Position numbers and translations under genes: made by a program
Shown: positions 2,933 through 16,465 of the stretch, piece after piece
Layout of the letters: every line of letters starts with the position of its first letter
Numbering within the stretch: position 1 is the first letter of the stretch
Origin: a virus
IMG/VR virus record: IMGVR_UViG_3300008218_002405
Location: 1 to 20,230 of that record
Strand: one strand, 5' to 3'
DNA length: 20,230 nucleotides
Notes under the pieces: model-generated
The model's input: only the letters and a program-made list of their open reading frames with translations
The model's database searches: none
What the model was told of the DNA's origin: nothing

Positions 2933-3160
2933 TTAAGATTGGTCACGAGCAAAGGTTTCGTCAGGACTCATCTTCATTGCAAGGTTAGTCATATCTTCAG
3001 CTAACTGCTTGGAAGGACGGGTATGCCCATTCAAAACCATATTCAGATAGGCTAAAGACACACCAAGTTTATCAGCGGCCTGTGCCTGTCTAATGTTATG
3101 CTGTTTCAGCAGTGGCTTTAACCTATGGGTTTTAAGTGGTTTAAATAGATCGTTCTTCAT
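2933..3160 (-). CDS. XRE/Cro-type helix-turn-helix regulator
   Basis: 75 residues. Residues about 13-60 form a Cro/CI-type helix-turn-helix: LKPLLKQHNIRQAQAADKLG, then VSLAYLNMVLNG as the turn and recognition helix, then the helix around SKQLAEDMTNLA. The protein is only the DNA-binding domain, with no C-terminal oligomerisation or peptidase part. The start at 3160 lies three bases after the stop of the upstream gene, with GGGGGGAT serving as ribosome binding site. As the only classical regulator in the leftward operon, it is a candidate to bind the 14-bp palindrome at 4899-4912 next to the divergent promoters, which would allow feedback on its own operon and on packaging. The HTH call is good; the target is inference. 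Confidence 0.82.
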   Translation of the reverse strand: MKNDLFKPLKTHRLKPLLKQHNIRQAQAADKLGVSLAYLNMVLNGHTRPSKQLAEDMTNLAMKMSPDETFARDQS

Positions 3161-3162
3161 TC

Positions 3163-3810
3163 TTATCCCCCCAACTGATCGTCAACGTCAGAAGCTACTA
3201 GAATGTTTCTGATCTCATATCTGGCTCGTACATCCTGACCAGTTTGTTCACAGGTTATTGTAGACTTGTATTTACCATCTACTTTAAACTGCGGAGCTTT
3301 AAACTCAGCGGCTCTACGAGCTTCCTTGGTCTGGTCAGGAGATGCCATAGACTTTGCGTCATCAATCGAATTAGTCTCAGTTAACGTCATTAGAGTGGTT
3401 TCAAACAATGCAGTACAATAACCTCTCCAAGTGATATCAAATCCCACAGGAGTCTGATCTCTGTGAATCTCAGCAATCATCTCAGCAATAGCCTGATTAG
3501 TTAGGTTGCTTTCAAAATCCATACCACTGGCTTGTACTAAGTCTTCCAACGCAGAGGATTTATTTCCCCAAGTGCGTGGTTGATTGTTTAGGTAGCCATT
3601 AGCAGTTACACCTGCTGGCTGAGTTGAACGCAGGGTTACAGCAACACCCATGTAGGTTTTGCCATCTCTTGTCCATTCTTTACCATGATCCAGCTTCTCA
3701 ATTACACCGACACATTTCGTGCCAGGAATTAACATCTTATAGGAATTGTCTTCCCAATTATCTGAAAAGGTTGAAACGGACTCAGTTGAAAATATACTAG
3801 GATCGAACAT
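3163..3810 (-). CDS. Possible single-strand DNA-binding partner of Sak4
   Basis: 215 residues, ATG at 3810 with an AAAGGGGGT ribosome binding site. The N-terminal half is rich in beta-like segments (TKCVGVIEKLDHG, TYMGVAVTLRS, VGFDITWRGYCT) and the C-terminal half ends in charged, basic and acidic stretches (EARRAAEFKAPQFKVDGKYK, then VASDVDDQLGG). An acidic tail is common in SSB proteins. In many phages a protein of this size lies beside a Sak4-type ATPase and acts as its single-strand DNA-binding partner; here it follows Sak4 after 30 bases. No family signature was recognised with certainty, so the function is inferred from position and general composition. One oddity: the coding strand holds GTCCGTTTCA near the N-terminus, a partial match to the dispersed 13-bp motif, probably by chance. 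Confidence 0.55.
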   Translation of the reverse strand: MFDPSIFSTESVSTFSDNWEDNSYKMLIPGTKCVGVIEKLDHGKEWTRDGKTYMGVAVTLRSTQPAGVTANGYLNNQPRTWGNKSSALEDLVQASGMDFESNLTNQAIAEMIAEIHRDQTPVGFDITWRGYCTALFETTLMTLTETNSIDDAKSMASPDQTKEARRAAEFKAPQFKVDGKYKSTITCEQTGQDVRARYEIRNILVASDVDDQLGG

Positions 3811-3840
3811 AATTTTTACCCCCTTTAGGTAAGTTGTTAA

Positions 3841-4578
3841 TTAAACGCCTTTCGGAAAGGCTTTCGCAAAAATCTGGTTGAAACTAGGATTGATTAAAAC
3901 TTGGTCAACCATCTTCGGTTCAGGCTTGAACTTCAGAACCTTGCCTTGAAAGTCACCTTTCTTAGCTCGACTCAGTTCAATAGAGTACTGTACTTTGTAA
4001 TCCAGTTGACTCCATCCCTGCCTCACCCAGAAACCAGTAGCTTGGTCATTAATATATTGAGGTGCAAGTGTGCTACTCAAAATCAAATTGCAGTCAGATT
4101 GTTTAGCCATGTCAATAATCTGTGCCATCTCTGCATTCAACGGCCCGTAATGGTGCGGCATGACCTGTGTAAGCTTGCCAAATCGGGCCATACGAAGGAG
4201 TTCCCACAGCAAGCCTACCGTATCTATGGCTACAGTTTTAACTTCTTTTAGAGCCTGTTTATACTCTGTCATAAATCTGTTCCACAATAAGTCTGCTTCC
4301 TTAATAAGTTTCGCTTCATTGGAACCTTTGGATGGCTTCTCAAAGAAATATTCACTAATCATAATTTCTTTGTTAGAGAAGTTCGGTTTGTTTACTACTG
4401 ATTCACTGTTGTGATCCAAGTCAAATAAGGCAATGGGTGCTGGACAAGTTAACAGGAGATGTGTCTTTCCTGAATCTTCCTTCCCCTGAACATTGATGAT
4501 CAGCCTTTGTTTGGACTTAACCTGATTTGCTGGACGAAAACCTGTGCCTTGTAGTAAACTACTTGCAGATGTACTCAT
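3841..4578 (-). CDS. Sak4-like RecA-type recombination ATPase
   Basis: 245 residues from the ATG at 4578; a start five codons earlier (4593) is equally open. Seen: Walker A GKEDSGKT (residues 32-39 from this start), a LFDLDHNSES segment typical of the phage Sak4/AAA_24 family in which an Asp follows the P-loop strand, and a Walker B strand ending in Asp119 (VKTVAIDTVG). Sak4 proteins are short RecA-like ATPases that promote single-strand annealing or strand exchange with an SSB partner. Start choice: the ATG at 4578 lies two bases after the stop of the zinc-ribbon gene with GGAGA at ideal spacing; the ATG at 4593 has an equal GGAGA but overlaps that gene by 13 bases. Family call good; exact recombination activity inferred. 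Confidence 0.83.
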   Translation of the reverse strand: MSTSASSLLQGTGFRPANQVKSKQRLIINVQGKEDSGKTHLLLTCPAPIALFDLDHNSESVVNKPNFSNKEIMISEYFFEKPSKGSNEAKLIKEADLLWNRFMTEYKQALKEVKTVAIDTVGLLWELLRMARFGKLTQVMPHHYGPLNAEMAQIIDMAKQSDCNLILSSTLAPQYINDQATGFWVRQGWSQLDYKVQYSIELSRAKKGDFQGKVLKFKPEPKMVDQVLINPSFNQIFAKAFPKGV

Positions 4579-10901: not shown

Positions 10902-11168
10902 TTATTTTGTGTTGTCGTCTAGTGGTAATCTGCGGTATTTCGGTGAAGCTGAAACATCTCTGCGGTGAAACTCCTCTACAGGCAGTTCGTGAGTTCCCCT
11001 GGTTAGATAATAGGTCAGCCATTCAGCTTCAAACTCAGTCAGTTCAAAATCAATATGGTTTCCAATAGATATGGTTAGCTTCTTGTTCTTGCTCCAACGC
11101 TTCACTCCAATCGGAACGTTGCCTGTAGTCAGTTCTTTGTCAGTTTTTGTATTGATTAGTTTAGCCAT
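10902..11168 (-). CDS. Hypothetical small protein
   Basis: 88 residues. The ATG at 11168 overlaps the preceding TAA by one base (TAATG). The first 45 residues alternate basic and beta-like segments (KRWSKNKKLTISIGNHIDFE); the middle has a helix FEAEWLTYYLTRG with aromatic residues; the tail is basic. Translation is probably coupled to the gene upstream. No family recognised. It belongs to the leftward small-gene operon driven from 11471-11500, a typical place for early host-takeover or anti-defence proteins, but the sequence does not show which. Confidence 0.6.
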   Translation of the reverse strand: MAKLINTKTDKELTTGNVPIGVKRWSKNKKLTISIGNHIDFELTEFEAEWLTYYLTRGTHELPVEEFHRRDVSASPKYRRLPLDDNTK

Positions 11169-11520: not shown

Positions 11521-11533
11521 TGCCGTCCGTTTC
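11521..11533 (+). repeat. Dispersed 13-bp motif, copy 2
   Basis: TGCCGTCCGTTTC, an exact match to consensus, in the intergenic region between the divergent promoters at 11471-11500 and 11594-11622. Confidence 0.7.
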
Positions 11534-11664: not shown

Positions 11665-12183
11665 ATGAGTAAAACTAAACCACTTCAACAGATACTGTAT
11701 GAGGATTGTGCTGAGGCTGTAGGAGAGCAAGTAGAGGAGCTAAAATACCGTGATCATGATGTGCGAAAAATGAGCGATTGTAAAGAGGCCAACGATCCTG
11801 ACCTGCCACTTGCAAAGGCTGATTATCTCTGTTGCCATTGTGGCTTCGAGATAGGTGGGAATGAGTATATTATCTCTACCGATAGCCCCTTCTTTTCTAA
11901 GCACCCAGTAAAGAACTCATTTGTTCATGCATCCTGCGAGAATCCAAGCTTGCGAGAGTCAGGATGGAAGTTCGAGATAATGGTTCACAAGCTAATTACA
12001 GATAACTTAGATATCGGAGCATGGTTCTGTCAGGGTTTGGTTGTAGACAGCGAACTTGTGACTTATCGTGACGGGTGGAAACCACCAATTAACAATAACC
12101 AACAACAGAAAGGAACAACTAATGTATTACAACAATCAATTTTCCAACGAGATTCAATTCCCAGAGTTAACTTCAAAAACTGA
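11665..12183 (+). CDS. Putative zinc-finger protein upstream of DUF932
   Basis: 172 residues from ATG 11665, chosen because AAGGGGGT lies 7 bases upstream; a GTG at 11629 in the same frame has no such site. Cys56-x2-Cys59 (CCHCGFEIGG) and His88-x2-Cys91 (FVHASCEN) form a likely single zinc site of the C-x2-C/H-x2-C type, spaced about 30 residues apart. The N-terminus is acidic and helical. The last 20 residues, rich in Asn and Gln, overlap the start of the DUF932 gene by 62 bases in another frame, which is long for a phage operon; the tail may be unconstrained. No family recognised. Confidence 0.6.
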   Translation: MSKTKPLQQILYEDCAEAVGEQVEELKYRDHDVRKMSDCKEANDPDLPLAKADYLCCHCGFEIGGNEYIISTDSPFFSKHPVKNSFVHASCENPSLRESGWKFEIMVHKLITDNLDIGAWFCQGLVVDSELVTYRDGWKPPINNNQQQKGTTNVLQQSIFQRDSIPRVNFKN

Positions 12184-13069
12184 CTTTAAAGCGGAGCTTG
12201 AACCTGTCTATATGCAAGACCATGATACGCACGTAGACACTGACCCAGGTGACTGGTTACCAGTTCAACGAGTCAAGCAAGGTCAGGTAGTCAGGCGTGA
12301 AGATACAGGGGCAAGTTTAGGGCTTGTCGGTAACGGCTATAAACCTGTCATGAACAGAGACTTGTATTCCATGCTTAAAAAGTCAGCGAGTGACGTTATG
12401 CCCCATCAACACTTGAAGGATATTGAGTTGACAGAGATTTCAAGTTATGGGGGTACATACACTCGATTTGAACTTGCGTTTCCAAGAATTAAAGCACAAA
12501 TCAAACAGGAAAATTCAGAAACAGAATTGCAGTTTAGAATGGCTGTTTCTAACTCGTTTGATGGAAGTTCGAGCATTCGTGTATTTTGTGGTGCTTTTGA
12601 TATCGTCTGTACCAATGGATTAATTACAGGCGATTACACACAAAGTCAAGCTAGGCATACTCTTGGCTACACTTCGGATAGACTCGATAGCTTTATTCGT
12701 GAACAAATGCATGTATACCAAGAAAAAACTGCTCAATTCCAAATGTGGGCTGACACGCCTATCTTACTTCCAAAGACTATTGAAGATACACTTCAAACTG
12801 GGTCTTCAATGAGTAAGCGTAACATTGAGCGGATTATGTCACGATTTGAGCAGGAAGCTACACGGCGTGGTAGATCAGTGTGGGCGTTGTACTCTGCCCT
12901 GACTTACTACGCTAGCCATAACTCTGATCAGTTCAAAGTCAATGCTACTAAAGACAGTGACGGGGTGTTGTCTGACAACATAGGGGCTTCACTAGAAGTG
13001 CGTGAACGTGAAGTTGCCAAGATCGTCAGTTCTCAAGCATGGGCTTCACTGGCTCAAATTCACGCTTGA
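12122..13069 (+). CDS. DUF932 phage/plasmid-like protein
   Basis: 315 residues from ATG 12122, which has AAAGGA 7 bases upstream; an open frame extends to 12068 but lacks a site. The protein matches the DUF932 (phage/plasmid-like) family: an N-terminal region with WLPVQRVKQGQVVRRED, then the hallmark VSNSFDGSSSIRVFCG followed by FDIVCTNGL, and a long helical C-terminus with RRGRSVWALYSALTYYASHN. Members are widespread on phages and plasmids, often beside recombination genes or anti-restriction genes; the biochemical role is not settled. A strong terminator follows at 13093-13121. Family call good, function unknown. Confidence 0.82.
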   Translation: MYYNNQFSNEIQFPELTSKTDFKAELEPVYMQDHDTHVDTDPGDWLPVQRVKQGQVVRREDTGASLGLVGNGYKPVMNRDLYSMLKKSASDVMPHQHLKDIELTEISSYGGTYTRFELAFPRIKAQIKQENSETELQFRMAVSNSFDGSSSIRVFCGAFDIVCTNGLITGDYTQSQARHTLGYTSDRLDSFIREQMHVYQEKTAQFQMWADTPILLPKTIEDTLQTGSSMSKRNIERIMSRFEQEATRRGRSVWALYSALTYYASHNSDQFKVNATKDSDGVLSDNIGASLEVREREVAKIVSSQAWASLAQIHA

Positions 13070-13092: not shown

Positions 13093-13121
13093 GGTCAGCC
13101 TAACCGCTGACCTTTTTTTTT
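13093..13121 (+). terminator. Intrinsic terminator after DUF932
   Basis: GGTCAGC and GCTGACC form a perfect 7-bp stem with a 6-base loop, directly followed by nine T. Confidence 0.9.
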
Positions 13122-13124
13122 GCC

Positions 13125-13177
13125 TGCTGTCCGTTTCAGTGTGCTACTGTCCGTTTCTTTTAGTCACTGTCCGTTTT
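13125..13177 (+). repeat. Three iteron-like copies of the 13-bp motif at 20-bp spacing
   Basis: Copies at 13125-13137 (TGCTGTCCGTTTC), 13145-13157 (TACTGTCCGTTTC) and 13165-13177 (CACTGTCCGTTTT). Their starts are exactly 20 bp apart, about two helical turns, and all point the same way. They lie between the DUF932 terminator and an AT-rich stretch before the 13228 promoter. The arrangement is that of iterons bound by a replication initiator or of a multi-site operator. Confidence 0.8.
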
Positions 13178-13227: not shown

Positions 13228-13257
13228 TTGACGCTATTTTATTAAAAATGGTAGGAT
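13228..13257 (+). promoter_or_regulatory. Promoter of accessory cassette A
   Basis: TTGACG (13228-13233), an 18-base spacer and TAGGAT (13252-13257). Same layout as the cassette B promoter at 14176-14205. Confidence 0.65.
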
Positions 13258-13265
13258 GATTTTGA

Positions 13266-13297
13266 TAGTTAAAAAATATTAACTTTTAAGGGGGTCA
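13266..13297 (+). promoter_or_regulatory. Conserved 32-base leader, copy A
   Basis: This stretch is identical at 31 of 32 positions to 14211-14242. It begins about at the predicted transcription start with TAGTTAAAAAATATTAACTT and ends in AAGGGGGTCA, the ribosome binding site. It includes the inverted repeat AGTTAA/TTAACT with a 6-base gap. Confidence 0.75.
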
Positions 13298-13298
13298 A

Positions 13299-14042
13299 AT
13301 GAAACTTAAAAAAGAAACTTATCAGAAAAGAACATCCAAAAATTTTGGGGGCTTATCTAACCCTTCAAAAATGCCACAAAAAGCCTATTCTATACCGGCT
13401 AAATTCTGCAAGGTAGGGGCCAAACTTGTAAAGATTATCGGTTCTGTTTGTGCTGGTTTTTTACTTGGGTTTGGATGTTATGCTCTAAGGGGTCGTTATC
13501 GTTTTAAGAATGTCGAGGAAGCATTACAAAGACGTTATGATCTTTTAATTTTAGCCCTAGAAAATCCGTCAATAGGTGATAAATGGGTCGAGGAAATGAG
13601 CGACCATATAAACAGATATTCTAAAAACTATTTTCGTTGGTTTGAAAGTGGCGATTTAGTCAATTTAGAAAACCTAAAATTGATTATTAGAGTTTGTGAG
13701 AATACGCCAGATACAAAACACTGGCTAGCCACTCGAGAATATCGCACTATTTGGGATTTTCAACGTGAGATAATTGAAGGTGACGGGAGCTTGCAGTTAC
13801 CAGATAACTTAGTTCTTAGAGTATCCGCTCCGATGATTGACGCCAAACCATTTCAAAAGGGGCATACTTTCAACACTTCAACAGTACATGCTAATAAGCC
13901 CCATTGTGGGCATAGATGCCCTATAACGAACGGTACGCAGTCATGCGTATCAATTGGATGTGTGGCAAGTGTAGGGGGTAAAGAATACAAGCTAGCATGC
14001 TTCAATAGAGAAGTGGCAAACGTTTCCTACCAACTACATTGA
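13299..14042 (+). CDS. Unknown single-span membrane-anchored protein with a Cys/His cluster
   Basis: 247 residues. A basic N-terminus of about 45 residues precedes a hydrophobic stretch, KIIGSVCAGFLLGFGCYAL, flanked by Lys and Arg, likely one membrane span. Next comes a soluble helical region (EEALQRRYDLLILALEN to about 165) with several Trp. The C-terminus (about 200-240) holds PHCGHRCPITNGTQSCVSIG and further Cys, a cluster that could bind metal or form disulfides. No family recognised. It has its own promoter, leader and terminator, so it is an independent accessory (moron-like) unit. AAGGGGGTCA before the ATG supports the start. Function unknown. Confidence 0.65.
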   Translation: MKLKKETYQKRTSKNFGGLSNPSKMPQKAYSIPAKFCKVGAKLVKIIGSVCAGFLLGFGCYALRGRYRFKNVEEALQRRYDLLILALENPSIGDKWVEEMSDHINRYSKNYFRWFESGDLVNLENLKLIIRVCENTPDTKHWLATREYRTIWDFQREIIEGDGSLQLPDNLVLRVSAPMIDAKPFQKGHTFNTSTVHANKPHCGHRCPITNGTQSCVSIGCVASVGGKEYKLACFNREVANVSYQLH

Positions 14043-14066
14043 CCCCCAATCAATAGGTAGGATTAA

Positions 14067-14092
14067 GGGGGGCTATATGCCCCCTTTTTTTT
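14067..14092 (+). terminator. Intrinsic terminator of cassette A
   Basis: GGGGGC (14068-14073) pairs with GCCCCC (14079-14084) around TATAT, followed by eight T. It starts 25 bases after the stop codon. Confidence 0.9.
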
Positions 14093-14123
14093 GTCCACTA
14101 CACCTATCCTGGAGCTTCCAGGT

Positions 14124-14136
14124 TGCTGTCCGTTTC
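14124..14136 (+). repeat. Dispersed 13-bp motif, copy 6
   Basis: TGCTGTCCGTTTC, exact to consensus, between the cassette A terminator and the cassette B promoter. Confidence 0.7.
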
Positions 14137-14175
14137 ATTGTTTTAGCCAAGCAATGCCCCTTTTTTTTTATGCCC

Positions 14176-14205
14176 TTGACAATATCAGGGGGCATGAATT
14201 AGAAT
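14176..14205 (+). promoter_or_regulatory. Promoter of accessory cassette B
   Basis: TTGACA (14176-14181), an 18-base spacer and TAGAAT (14200-14205, five of six). Confidence 0.75.
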
Positions 14206-14210
14206 CAAAA

Positions 14211-14242
14211 TAGTTCAAAAATATTAACTTTTAAGGGGGTCA
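14211..14242 (+). promoter_or_regulatory. Conserved 32-base leader, copy B
   Basis: Differs from the copy at 13266-13297 at one base (C for A at its sixth position). It ends in the AAGGGGGTCA ribosome binding site two bases before the ATG triplet. Confidence 0.75.
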
Positions 14243-14244
14243 AT

Positions 14245-14715
14245 ATGTTAAACTGGAAACCTAGAAATTTAAACTACAAATTAAGTAAGGGGCAAGTCCT
14301 ACTCTCAAAAGCTTGTAAGTTTGTTTTAGATGATTATCATTATGAGGATATTGAAGAGGAAACTTTTCTAGCCTGTCAACAGATAATCCATAACCCGATG
14401 CTACTGGACACAATCCCACTGGTAATCTCTGGACAGTTTTCGGATTTTTTAGATGAGCTAAAAGAATCAGTGGAAAATTTAAAAGATGATCTAGGGGCTT
14501 TTGGTATAGAGGAAGTTACTTTTCAGCCCTATAAAAACTTTACAGTTACCAAAGACATGTATCGTTTTGTTACCAAGAATCGGCTTGCCACATTGACTTG
14601 GGTCGATTATCGGATTGATCATGATTACATGACTGATTTTATGCACAAGCTAGAAAAGGAAATTGAAAAGCTACCAAGTGAGTATCGAGACAATGTTGTT
14701 GATACTTACTTTTAA
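14245..14715 (+). CDS. Unknown accessory cytoplasmic protein
   Basis: 156 residues, ATG at 14245 after the conserved leader. The sequence is acidic and mostly helical (DDYHYEDIEEETFLACQQII, DFLDELKESVENLKDDLG), with a more beta-like centre (EEVTFQPYKNFTVTKDMYRF) and a final acidic helix. There is no signal peptide, membrane span or metal motif. No family recognised. It has its own promoter and terminator and shares its 5' leader with the preceding cassette gene, although the two proteins show no visible similarity. Likely an accessory protein; function unknown. Confidence 0.65.
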   Translation: MLNWKPRNLNYKLSKGQVLLSKACKFVLDDYHYEDIEEETFLACQQIIHNPMLLDTIPLVISGQFSDFLDELKESVENLKDDLGAFGIEEVTFQPYKNFTVTKDMYRFVTKNRLATLTWVDYRIDHDYMTDFMHKLEKEIEKLPSEYRDNVVDTYF

Positions 14716-14738
14716 CATCAGCTTAAATCTAGGAACTA

Positions 14739-14766
14739 AGGGGGGCATTCTTTGCCCCCTTTTTTT
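14739..14766 (+). terminator. Intrinsic terminator of cassette B
   Basis: GGGGGCA (14741-14747) pairs with TGCCCCC (14753-14759) around TTCTT, with AA upstream and seven T downstream. It is close in sequence to the cassette A terminator. Confidence 0.9.
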
Positions 14767-15053
14767 ATGCCTTCATTAGACGGGGCACAACCCGATCCCG
14801 TTCCCCTACCACTAACCTTGGAAACTTCATTCTAGATAATGAACTTCTATTTATAGGCATAAATTAGCCCCTAAATGATCATATATTATCAAGTGATGCT
14901 ATTTAAGCGTGCAAGGATCGATCCTAAGCAACGATCTCTATGGTATCAATAGTAGGGTAAGGGTCAAAATATAACGCCCCTTAGATGAGGGCAATGTCTG
15001 TTTTTGGTGATTTAGATCTAAATCAGGAAATGGAGCAAGTAAACTGAACAAAG
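14767..15053. other. Non-coding stretch with palindromes
   Basis: No convincing coding frame or ribosome binding site was found on either strand over these 287 bases. Two perfect palindromes stand out: AGGATCGATCCT (14914-14925) and TGATTTAGATCTAAATCA (15008-15025, 18 bp). The stretch separates convergent cassettes B and C. It could hold protein-binding sites or be a recombination junction; the sequence alone does not decide. Confidence 0.5.
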
Positions 15054-15078
15054 AAAAAGGGGGCTATTTCTAGCCCCC
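15054..15078 (-). terminator. Intrinsic terminator of the leftward cassette C
   Basis: On the minus strand GGGGGCTA, a GAAA loop and TAGCCCCC, followed by five T. It lies about 44 bases past the stop of the gene at 15122-15535. Confidence 0.85.
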
Positions 15079-15082
15079 CTGT

Positions 15083-15122
15083 CGGAAGTTATCAGAAGTC
15101 TACGGAAGTGTCTGGAAGATCT
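15083..15122. repeat. Four tandem 10-bp repeats
   Basis: Four consecutive 10-bp units, each starting with YRGAAG followed by four variable bases (CGGAAGTTAT, CAGAAGTCTA, CGGAAGTGTC, TGGAAGATCT). They lie between the stop codon at 15122-15124 and the leftward terminator, so they are in the 3' end of that transcript. The one-helical-turn period would place every unit on the same DNA face. Confidence 0.6.
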
Positions 15123-15535
15123 TATATACGACGCCCCCCTATGCTACCAATTTTGGCCATAAAAGAATCAGCCCTGCCCTCTTTCCATTCTTTATAAGAA
15201 CCAGTGACATGCTTTTTTTTAGTTTGTTGTATAAGAATTAATTTGTTGAATGCGGCCGAGTACATGCCCTTGCCCCTTGCATCCAATTCTTTAAATTCAG
15301 GAACTGCAAAGTAACGCTTTTTTAATTCGGTCAATTCATCAGTAGAGCATGCCCCCAAGTCAACGGAAGGTAGCCTATCGGTCAAGTAAAGATCACGTGC
15401 TATCTTACGTATAGCTTGTGTGTAATTTTTGATGCTCTTTGGTGATAATTTAGTTTCACGTTGCATCCAATGAGTAACCTGCAATTCCAGTGTAGCAATT
15501 GCGTCAGTTTGTGATGTGTTGATGTAGTCTTTCAT
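15122..15535 (-). CDS. Stand-alone helical domain like the N-terminus of restriction endonucleases
   Basis: 137 residues, ATG at 15535 preceded by CTAAGGGGGTCATT, the G-rich site shared with the other cassettes. The pattern LSPKSIKNYTQAIRKIARDL, then ELTELKKRYFAVPEFKEL and DARGKGMYSAAFNKLILIQ, resembles the helical N-terminal domain found before nuclease domains in some restriction endonucleases (form ...kGnxMYSaALxxyxxF), and more distantly the core-binding domain of tyrosine recombinases. No HNH, PD-(D/E)XK or R-H-R-Y catalytic residues follow. It is therefore a DNA-binding-type domain on its own, perhaps a decoy or inhibitor, or a decayed enzyme. The match is from memory of the pattern and is moderate at best. 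Confidence 0.5.
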   Translation of the reverse strand: MKDYINTSQTDAIATLELQVTHWMQRETKLSPKSIKNYTQAIRKIARDLYLTDRLPSVDLGACSTDELTELKKRYFAVPEFKELDARGKGMYSAAFNKLILIQQTKKKHVTGSYKEWKEGRADSFMAKIGSIGGRRI

Positions 15536-15540
15536 AATGA

Positions 15541-16019
15541 CCCCCTTAGTTAATGTATAAAAATATTAAGATAATGAGAGCTTCCCATATCTATATATTG
15601 TTGTCAAGTAGAAAAGTAAAAGGATATTAAAAAGATATTTTCTAGGGAGGGCAATTGATAGGACAAAATGAGGGCAAGGTAGGGGGCCAAATAGGGGGGG
15701 CAATAGTTGTGACAAATAAACACACACAACAAACCCATGACCCCTAAAAATTTTGGGAGTTTGATAGTGGGGGGGCTAGTTGTTTGGAAGCAAGGCAAGC
15801 CCCCCATATACCCCCCCTATCTATTAAGGATTTAAACAACAATTAATAAAAAGGAACAAGGGCTAAGTCTTTTGTTTTCAATTATTTAACGCAGAAAAAG
15901 AAAATCAACATCAATAATAATTCTTTTTTTAATGTCTCCTATTTATTAGGTTACTTAAAGATAACAGCGGTAATTTCCCAAAAAATTCTAGAAAATATTG
16001 ACAAATAGTGCTAGTACTG
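15541..16019. other. Gene-poor, G-tract-rich intergenic segment
   Basis: No supported gene. The AAGGGGGT leader of cassette C and a TTGACA box (15602-15607, minus strand, no good -10) occupy the first 67 bases. From 15645 to 15700 the plus strand has G-tracts (3, 3, 3, 5 and 7 G), with potential to form a G-quadruplex at 15672-15700. A hairpin follows at 15770-15805, and 15806-15979 is plain AT-rich sequence with a CCCCCCC run at 15811. Confidence 0.5.
15770..15805. repeat. Hairpin with GGGGGGCT/AGCCCCCC arms
   Basis: Arms 15770-15777 and 15798-15805 pair perfectly over 8 bp. The 20-base loop itself can pair (TTG with CAA, twice) around a GAAG tip. No T-tract lies beside it on either strand, so it is not a typical terminator. 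Confidence 0.45.
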
Positions 16020-16435: not shown

Positions 16436-16465
16436 TTGACTGCCGTCCGTTTCCTGTGCTATAAT
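16436..16465 (+). promoter_or_regulatory. Portal operon promoter with motif copy 7 in its spacer
   Basis: TTGACT (16436-16441), an 18-base spacer and a perfect TATAAT (16460-16465). The dispersed motif TGCCGTCCGTTTC (16441-16453) begins at the last base of the -35 box and fills most of the spacer, so a protein bound there would contest RNA polymerase. Leader of about 87 bases before the portal ATG. Confidence 0.82.

Follow-up and report, generated by a model that had tools for sequence, protein, structure and literature searches.

Genes and control elements of the accessory region

The stretch of DNA analysed here (the window), 20,230 bases long, is an IMG/VR-type virus record in full. The tailed phage from which it comes has genes for a terminase, a portal protein, a Sak4-like protein and a DNA polymerase, and belongs to a marine, uncultured lineage known solely from metagenomes. 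Its terminase and portal match those of non-T4 phages, placing it outside the T4 type. A portal scan of GTDB genome contigs found neither a prophage nor a host, and Rfam scans (window and sister phage L097) and tRNA scans gave no match. The gene at 219–707 encodes a protein of 162 aa that, judged by eye, resembles ferritins; it belongs to PHROG 16594 (unknown function) and is 83% identical in L097.

The accessory region contains ORF 1 (13299–14042, + strand), encoding a GP88-family protein (PF17338, 1.7e-20), ORF 2 (14245–14715, + strand), encoding a protein of 156 aa (ORF156), and, in the opposite orientation, ORF 3 (15122–15535, − strand), encoding 137 aa. The products of ORF 1 and ORF 2 are unrelated to each other by BLASTP, as the original prediction held. 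Protein scans in which ORF156 and the DUF932 protein encoded upstream were each scanned alone revealed no relatives of either; a PADLOC match of ORF156 to a Type I specificity protein (E = 0.009, to a long profile) is marginal and is not believed. The GP88 protein carries two in-frame insertions (13432–13500 and 13935–14025) that are present in 0 of 80 homologues. The first consists of six residues, GFLLGF, within the CxxCYA motif. The second, of about 10–12 aa, precedes ACF in the C-terminal Cys cluster and is flanked by two GCA codons; omitting it from the reading gives the family spacing. The inserted DNA has no second copy in the window.

Promoter-like sequences of the predicted form, TTGACR-N18-TAGRAT, precede both + strand ORFs: TTGACG-N18-TAGGAT at 13228–13257 (+ strand; probably of the host sigma70 type; a weak 9/12 match) and TTGACA-N18-TAGAAT at 14176–14205 (+ strand). 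The look-alike terminators (GGGGGGC/GCCCCC-T) were likewise found, as AAGGGGGGC-TATAT-GCCCCC-T8 at 14065–14092 (+ strand) and AAGGGGGGC-ATTCTTT-GCCCCC-T7 at 14738–14766 (+ strand). The two terminator segments agree at 37/44 positions (z = 9.6), and the folding of both + strand terminators beats nearly all shuffles (5/200 as good). The terminator of the upstream DUF932 gene (13093–13121, + strand), a GGTCAGC/GCTGACC hairpin followed by T9, is not of the GGGGGC type.

ORF 3 forms a third, looser unit on the − strand, which had been missed together with its terminator. This terminator (15057–15080, − strand) is of the GGGGGC type and resembles the other two (z = 8.7 and 6.4), and a diverged copy of the leader described below, ...CATTAACTAAGGGGGTCATT, lies at 15536–15568 (− strand; 27/35, reached by 0/500 shuffles). 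A weaker relative of the leader, TTTTTTAACAACCAAGGGGGTAAACAAA, belongs to gene 11665–12183 (z = 3.3).

Candidate regulator sites upstream of the promoters

The motif CTGTCCGTTTC is present upstream of both + strand units, as the original prediction stated, at a place other than the one it named: the copies stand before the promoters, not before each terminator. Between the upstream terminator and the promoter of ORF 1 are three tandem copies with a 20-bp period (starting at 13127, 13147 and 13167; 13127–13177, + strand), and a single copy (14126–14136, + strand) has the same position before ORF 2. CCGTCCGTTTC is found 5′ of gene 11665–12183 (11523–11533, + strand) and, at 16443–16453, in the spacer of the portal-gene promoter TTGACT-N18-TATAAT (16436–16465, + strand), a spacer that differs in the sister phages L097 and L176. 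With up to one mismatch allowed, the window has 7 copies of CTGTCCGTTTC where 0.27 would be expected; 7/7 are on the + strand and 6/7 are intergenic.

The sites are asymmetric, intergenic and in a single orientation, with one overlapping a promoter, and by analogy both they and their placement resemble stoperators or operators. The stoperators of Cluster A mycobacteriophages are also short, asymmetric, intergenic and in one orientation, and their sequence varies between related phages; unlike them, the sites here number only six or seven. A putative phage regulator may bind the CTGTCCGTTTC sites and switch the accessory promoters and the portal promoter. The Cro-like HTH protein encoded at 2933–3160 is only a candidate for this role. 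Tandem CTGTCCGTTTC matches in the loci L003–L007 were dropped because these loci encode no relative of the window proteins; in one of them, an unrelated viral contig of 57% GC, head-to-tail TGTCCGTTTC repeats with a 10-bp period (L003:5835–5926) resemble CTGTCCGTTTC.

A nearly identical leader precedes two unrelated ORFs

ORF 1 and ORF 2 share a 34-nt leader that begins near the predicted +1 position and reaches the start codon; in copy 1 it reads ATAGTTAAAAAATATTAACTTTTAAGGGGGTCAA and contains TTAACTTTTAA and the Shine–Dalgarno (SD) sequence AAGGGGGT. Copy 1 (13265–13298, + strand) and copy 2 (14210–14243, + strand) are identical at 33/34 positions (z = 14), a score reached by 0/500 shuffles, which bears out the near-identity first noticed. 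The −10 hexamer is 7 bases away from the leader in copy 1 vs. 4 bases in copy 2, so that the leader would begin at the predicted transcription start or a few bases 5′ of it.

A survey covering about 175 viral loci compared the 34-mers directly 5′ of start codons, and the window pair ranked first among 586,522 same-contig pairs. Chance or convergence of an AT-rich leader and an SD has in its favour that AT-rich DNA and a common SD lift background similarity; however, when the SD was kept and the 5′ part shuffled, the maximum was 26/34 in five replicates of about 586,000 pairs each, vs. 33/34 observed, and we regard this explanation as refuted. The survey pairs in L059 (low complexity), L115 and L168 have the look of repeats or duplicated stretches, not of clean leaders, and were excluded as support.

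The original prediction proposed that a search of phage genomes might find the leader ahead of many unrelated ORFs. No exact or near-exact copy was found in IMG/VR, GTDB genome contigs or GenBank phages, and the exact leader was absent from all other fetched loci. Confinement of the exact leader to this pair defeats the strict cassette version of the idea. The single local duplication that such confinement was taken to mean fails as well, because the leader is 97% identical next to unalike promoter spacers, there is a third, diverged copy, and the design is also seen elsewhere in different sequences.

Segment-by-segment comparison of the two units shows how narrow the similarity is. The promoters are alike in their hexamers only, the whole promoter segment aligning no better than shuffles (z = −0.2). 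The region from the terminator to the −35 hexamer gave z = 2.5, and the first 120 coding bases of the two ORFs gave z = 2.1, a similarity that is not clear. Had one block been duplicated and then drifted, the spacers should be as similar to each other as the leaders are; with a leader alike at 33/34 positions next to an unalike promoter segment, this scenario is rejected. Copying limited to the leader is compatible with the same comparison.

Such copying may have been recent, with a tract duplicated or converted between the two modules that has not yet drifted and has no leader-specific function. Near-identity within one genome and the lack of a match elsewhere are consistent with this, and in L097 the promoter segment is alike too (z = 5.7), which suggests that whole promoter–leader pieces were copied there. 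On the other hand, the tract boundaries in the window are those of the 5′ UTR, the adjoining promoter spacer is unalike and the same boundary is seen in phage RB49; moreover, leaders with TTAAC and an SD occur on many genes of this phage and some are kept in orthologues. We consider a functionless recent copy unlikely.

The leader as a probable translation-boosting region

In the leader, UUAACUUUUAA is directly followed by the SD AAGGGGGU, the two overlapping at AA. This arrangement is like that of the T7 gene 10 leader, in which the epsilon element UUAACUUUAA lies 5′ of a strong SD; the UUAACUUUA(A) expected 5′ of the SD in a 5′ UTR of that type is found here with one extra U. The T7 gene 10 leader strongly boosts translation in E. 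coli. The mode of action of its element is disputed, pairing with 16S rRNA having been doubted and S1 binding proposed, and the element is dispensable in Agrobacterium. T7 carries this enhancer on its capsid gene, whereas in the window phage the enhancer-like element is on accessory genes.

TTAAC (UUAAC) occurs 5′ of the SD in 9/16 SD-bearing genes of the window, in 7 of them at −18 to −24. With the survey-wide permutation mean as the rate, the binomial P is about 5e-10, a post-hoc value since the motif was taken from the finding itself. At the 846 intergenic SD-bearing starts of the surveyed loci, TTAAC ranked first of 30 permutations (59 occurrences vs. a mean of 28.3). Orthologous leaders retain it for gene 3163–3810 (L096 and L097) and, in L176, for gene 18989; the gene 18989 leader of L177 does not. 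By RNA folding, the leaders are structured no more than shuffles. Because UUAACUUUUAA is joined to an SD, TTAAC recurs and is retained in orthologues, and structure is not in excess, we infer that the leader is a translation-boosting 5′ UTR. UAAGGGGGU is predicted to pair over about nine bases, with one G–U, with the 3′ end of 16S rRNA; the anti-SD used is the generally known sequence at that end.

The leader of gene 3163–3810, TTTAATTAACAACTTACCTAAAGGGGGTAAA (window 3811–3845), has a CCGAAAGG stretch before it and is strongly conserved in L096 and L097, even though the protein is just 53–79% identical there.

The same plan with other genes in a sister phage

Finding relatives took alignments of GP88 and terminase; relatives of the window phage (L096–L099 and L176–L181) were obtained from terminase and portal scans. 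Of these, L097 and the window are collinear. Its slot between the homologue of gene 10902–11168 and the portal gene is without GP88, ORF156, g25 and DUF932, and holds other, mutually unrelated ORFs at 13056, 13516 and 13964. Two L097 leaders are alike at 32/36 positions (z = 11) and a third aligns too (z = 8.4); two terminators align at z = 10. The promoters at two of the ORFs are TTGACA-N18-TACAAT and TTGACA-N18-TATAAT, with leaders starting about seven bases past the −10 hexamer. A fourth gene, at 12008, shows weak resemblance (z = 1.6). Between the leaders of L097 and the window there is no similarity (z = 0.3), and TTAAC is present in only some of the L097 copies. Directly behind a terminator 5′ of its own units, L097 carries a different repeat, GTATTGTTTCC, in three copies.

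Comparison of the two genomes indicates that the plan is kept between the window phage and L097 while leader sequence and genes change. L177, L178 and L181 have the L097-type arrangement and are of the same population as L097, and so represent one further lineage with it, not several. The modular slot of the original prediction is upheld as far as unrelated ORFs under standard parts go, and L097 has the same slot; a transferable signature of its own was not borne out. L097 also has, 5′ of the portal operon (14538–14790), three ATCCAATAAATTGGAT-like sequences and two GTGTCTCATTTATGCAACAGTGT sequences with inverted partners, none of them seen in the window. Between L097 gene units, at 12800–12920, is a non-coding stretch that is GC-richer than its surroundings and is possibly a structured RNA or an attachment site; it has no Rfam match.

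Taken with the window evidence, we judge it rather probable that the region is a variable accessory slot of monocistronic modules, in which a shared translation-boosting 5′ UTR is kept by selection and local copying. Each module would consist, in order, of a phage-regulator site, a host-type sigma70 promoter, the standard 5′ UTR, an ORF and an intrinsic terminator, and host RNA polymerase would transcribe each ORF separately. The 34-nt leader would act as an unstructured, strong translation-start region, with a T7-like UUAACUUUUAA element ahead of AAGGGGGU. Selection on translation would preserve the likeness of this short region; when a new ORF is captured, copying of short tracts from module to module, by recombination or gene conversion, may spread it. 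Several observations weigh against this reading: the genome has only two near-identical leader copies, the third being loose; functionless gene conversion limited to the leader would likewise leave 33/34; the action of the T7 element is contested, and the element is dispensable in Agrobacterium; and the L097 leaders, only partly with TTAAC, are unlike that of the window. A further, speculative extension, to which we give little weight, is that each such lineage keeps a private accessory-gene 5′ UTR that is read by a co-evolving phage factor, either an RNA-binding protein or a modified ribosome component, so that captured ORFs are preferentially translated during infection.

Relation to repeat systems of other phages

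PeSLs, reportedly treated by Arbiol (2010) and Comeau (2014), are promoter-early stem-loop regulatory cassettes of T4-type phages (PMC4503421). They are promoter–terminator pieces that are repeated, as in the window, between unrelated small ORFs of a variable region. The window shows both a host-type promoter with a stem-loop terminator repeated between unrelated ORFs and, from the syntenic place in L097, a variable region whose ORFs differ between relatives. Unlike PeSLs, the units here are in a phage that is not T4-like, the terminator lies about 85–110 bases 5′ of the promoter, there are extra CTGTCCGTTTC sites, and only 2–3 copies are present. As a control, a similar script was applied to RB49, which belongs to the T4-type group from which PeSLs are known. 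Two of its genes have an identical 26-nt leader and TTGACA promoters whose spacers are unlike; in one of the two cases a hairpin terminator lies just 5′.

The SAS/ESAS repeats of Cluster K mycobacteriophages and Cluster EF Microbacterium phages (PMC3203893, PMC7302621) are unusually well conserved and lie at the ribosome-binding site of unrelated genes, with one sequence per phage group that differs between groups. The window likewise has a conserved repeat immediately 5′ of the start codons of unrelated genes. Its leader sequence differs from the SAS consensus, GGGATAGGAGCCC or GGGAAAGGACCCC, the former of which TM4 carries as published (PMC3203893). SAS also differs from the window leader in being 13 bp long and having many more copies, and no terminator–promoter unit per gene is described for it.

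A bound RNA or protein has been considered for SAS/ESAS, which show a similar within-group uniformity (PMC3203893). The leader might be the target of a phage-encoded trans-acting regulator, an RNA-binding protein or a small RNA, that co-controls its carriers and whose target varies by phage. Within one phage the leader is indeed uniform, sister phages have different leaders, and copy 1 contains the inverted repeat AGTTAA/TTAACT. This repeat is disrupted by the one base at which the two copies differ, however, and neither an excess of structure nor an Rfam match (window and L097) was found, and we hold such a regulator to be quite unlikely.

Intergenic repeats of halovirus HF2 are also located between virus genes and carry promoters by reporter assays (PMC8707807). 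They differ from the window in that the promoters are archaeal and the HF2 repeat carries the promoter, whereas the window repeat is the 5′ UTR.

The likeness to integrons was not borne out. The window, a partial genome, revealed no integrase among its scanned proteins and no attC-like repeat among the repeats found, and its cassettes contain neither a recombinase nor a site-specific recombination site. Unrelated ORFs, alike parts and a variable slot would suit a mobile cassette of the integron or moron type that has an insertion signature of its own. That reading is very improbable, given that neither a recombinase nor an attachment-like site was found in the units, none of the other records searched contains the leader and the repeats coincide with regulatory parts, not with cassette ends. 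The region is not integron-like, and a universal signature is absent. The plug-in design is real, because the sister phage repeats the plan with other genes and another leader, and its kind has already been described in other phages (PeSL, SAS/ESAS and HF2 repeats). The design of shared control parts known from T4-type phages and actinophages thus extends to an uncultured lineage known from metagenomes only, and the shared piece here is the 5′ UTR, not the promoter. In viral metagenomes, repeated leaders may provide a cheap marker of variable accessory slots and of translation signals that are private to one genome.

Two unrelated phages have a comparable architecture. L060 has two genes with leaders alike at 30/34 positions behind TTGACA promoters. 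L084, a GP88-bearing phage contig, has an array of five or six consecutive small genes (400–1980, − strand), each preceded by TGCGACA (−35-like), a stem-loop, a −10-like hexamer, a TTAAC leader and an SD. The intergenic element is roughly 75 bases, with the stem-loop between TGCGACA and the −10-like hexamer, and by analogy the array appears strikingly PeSL-like.
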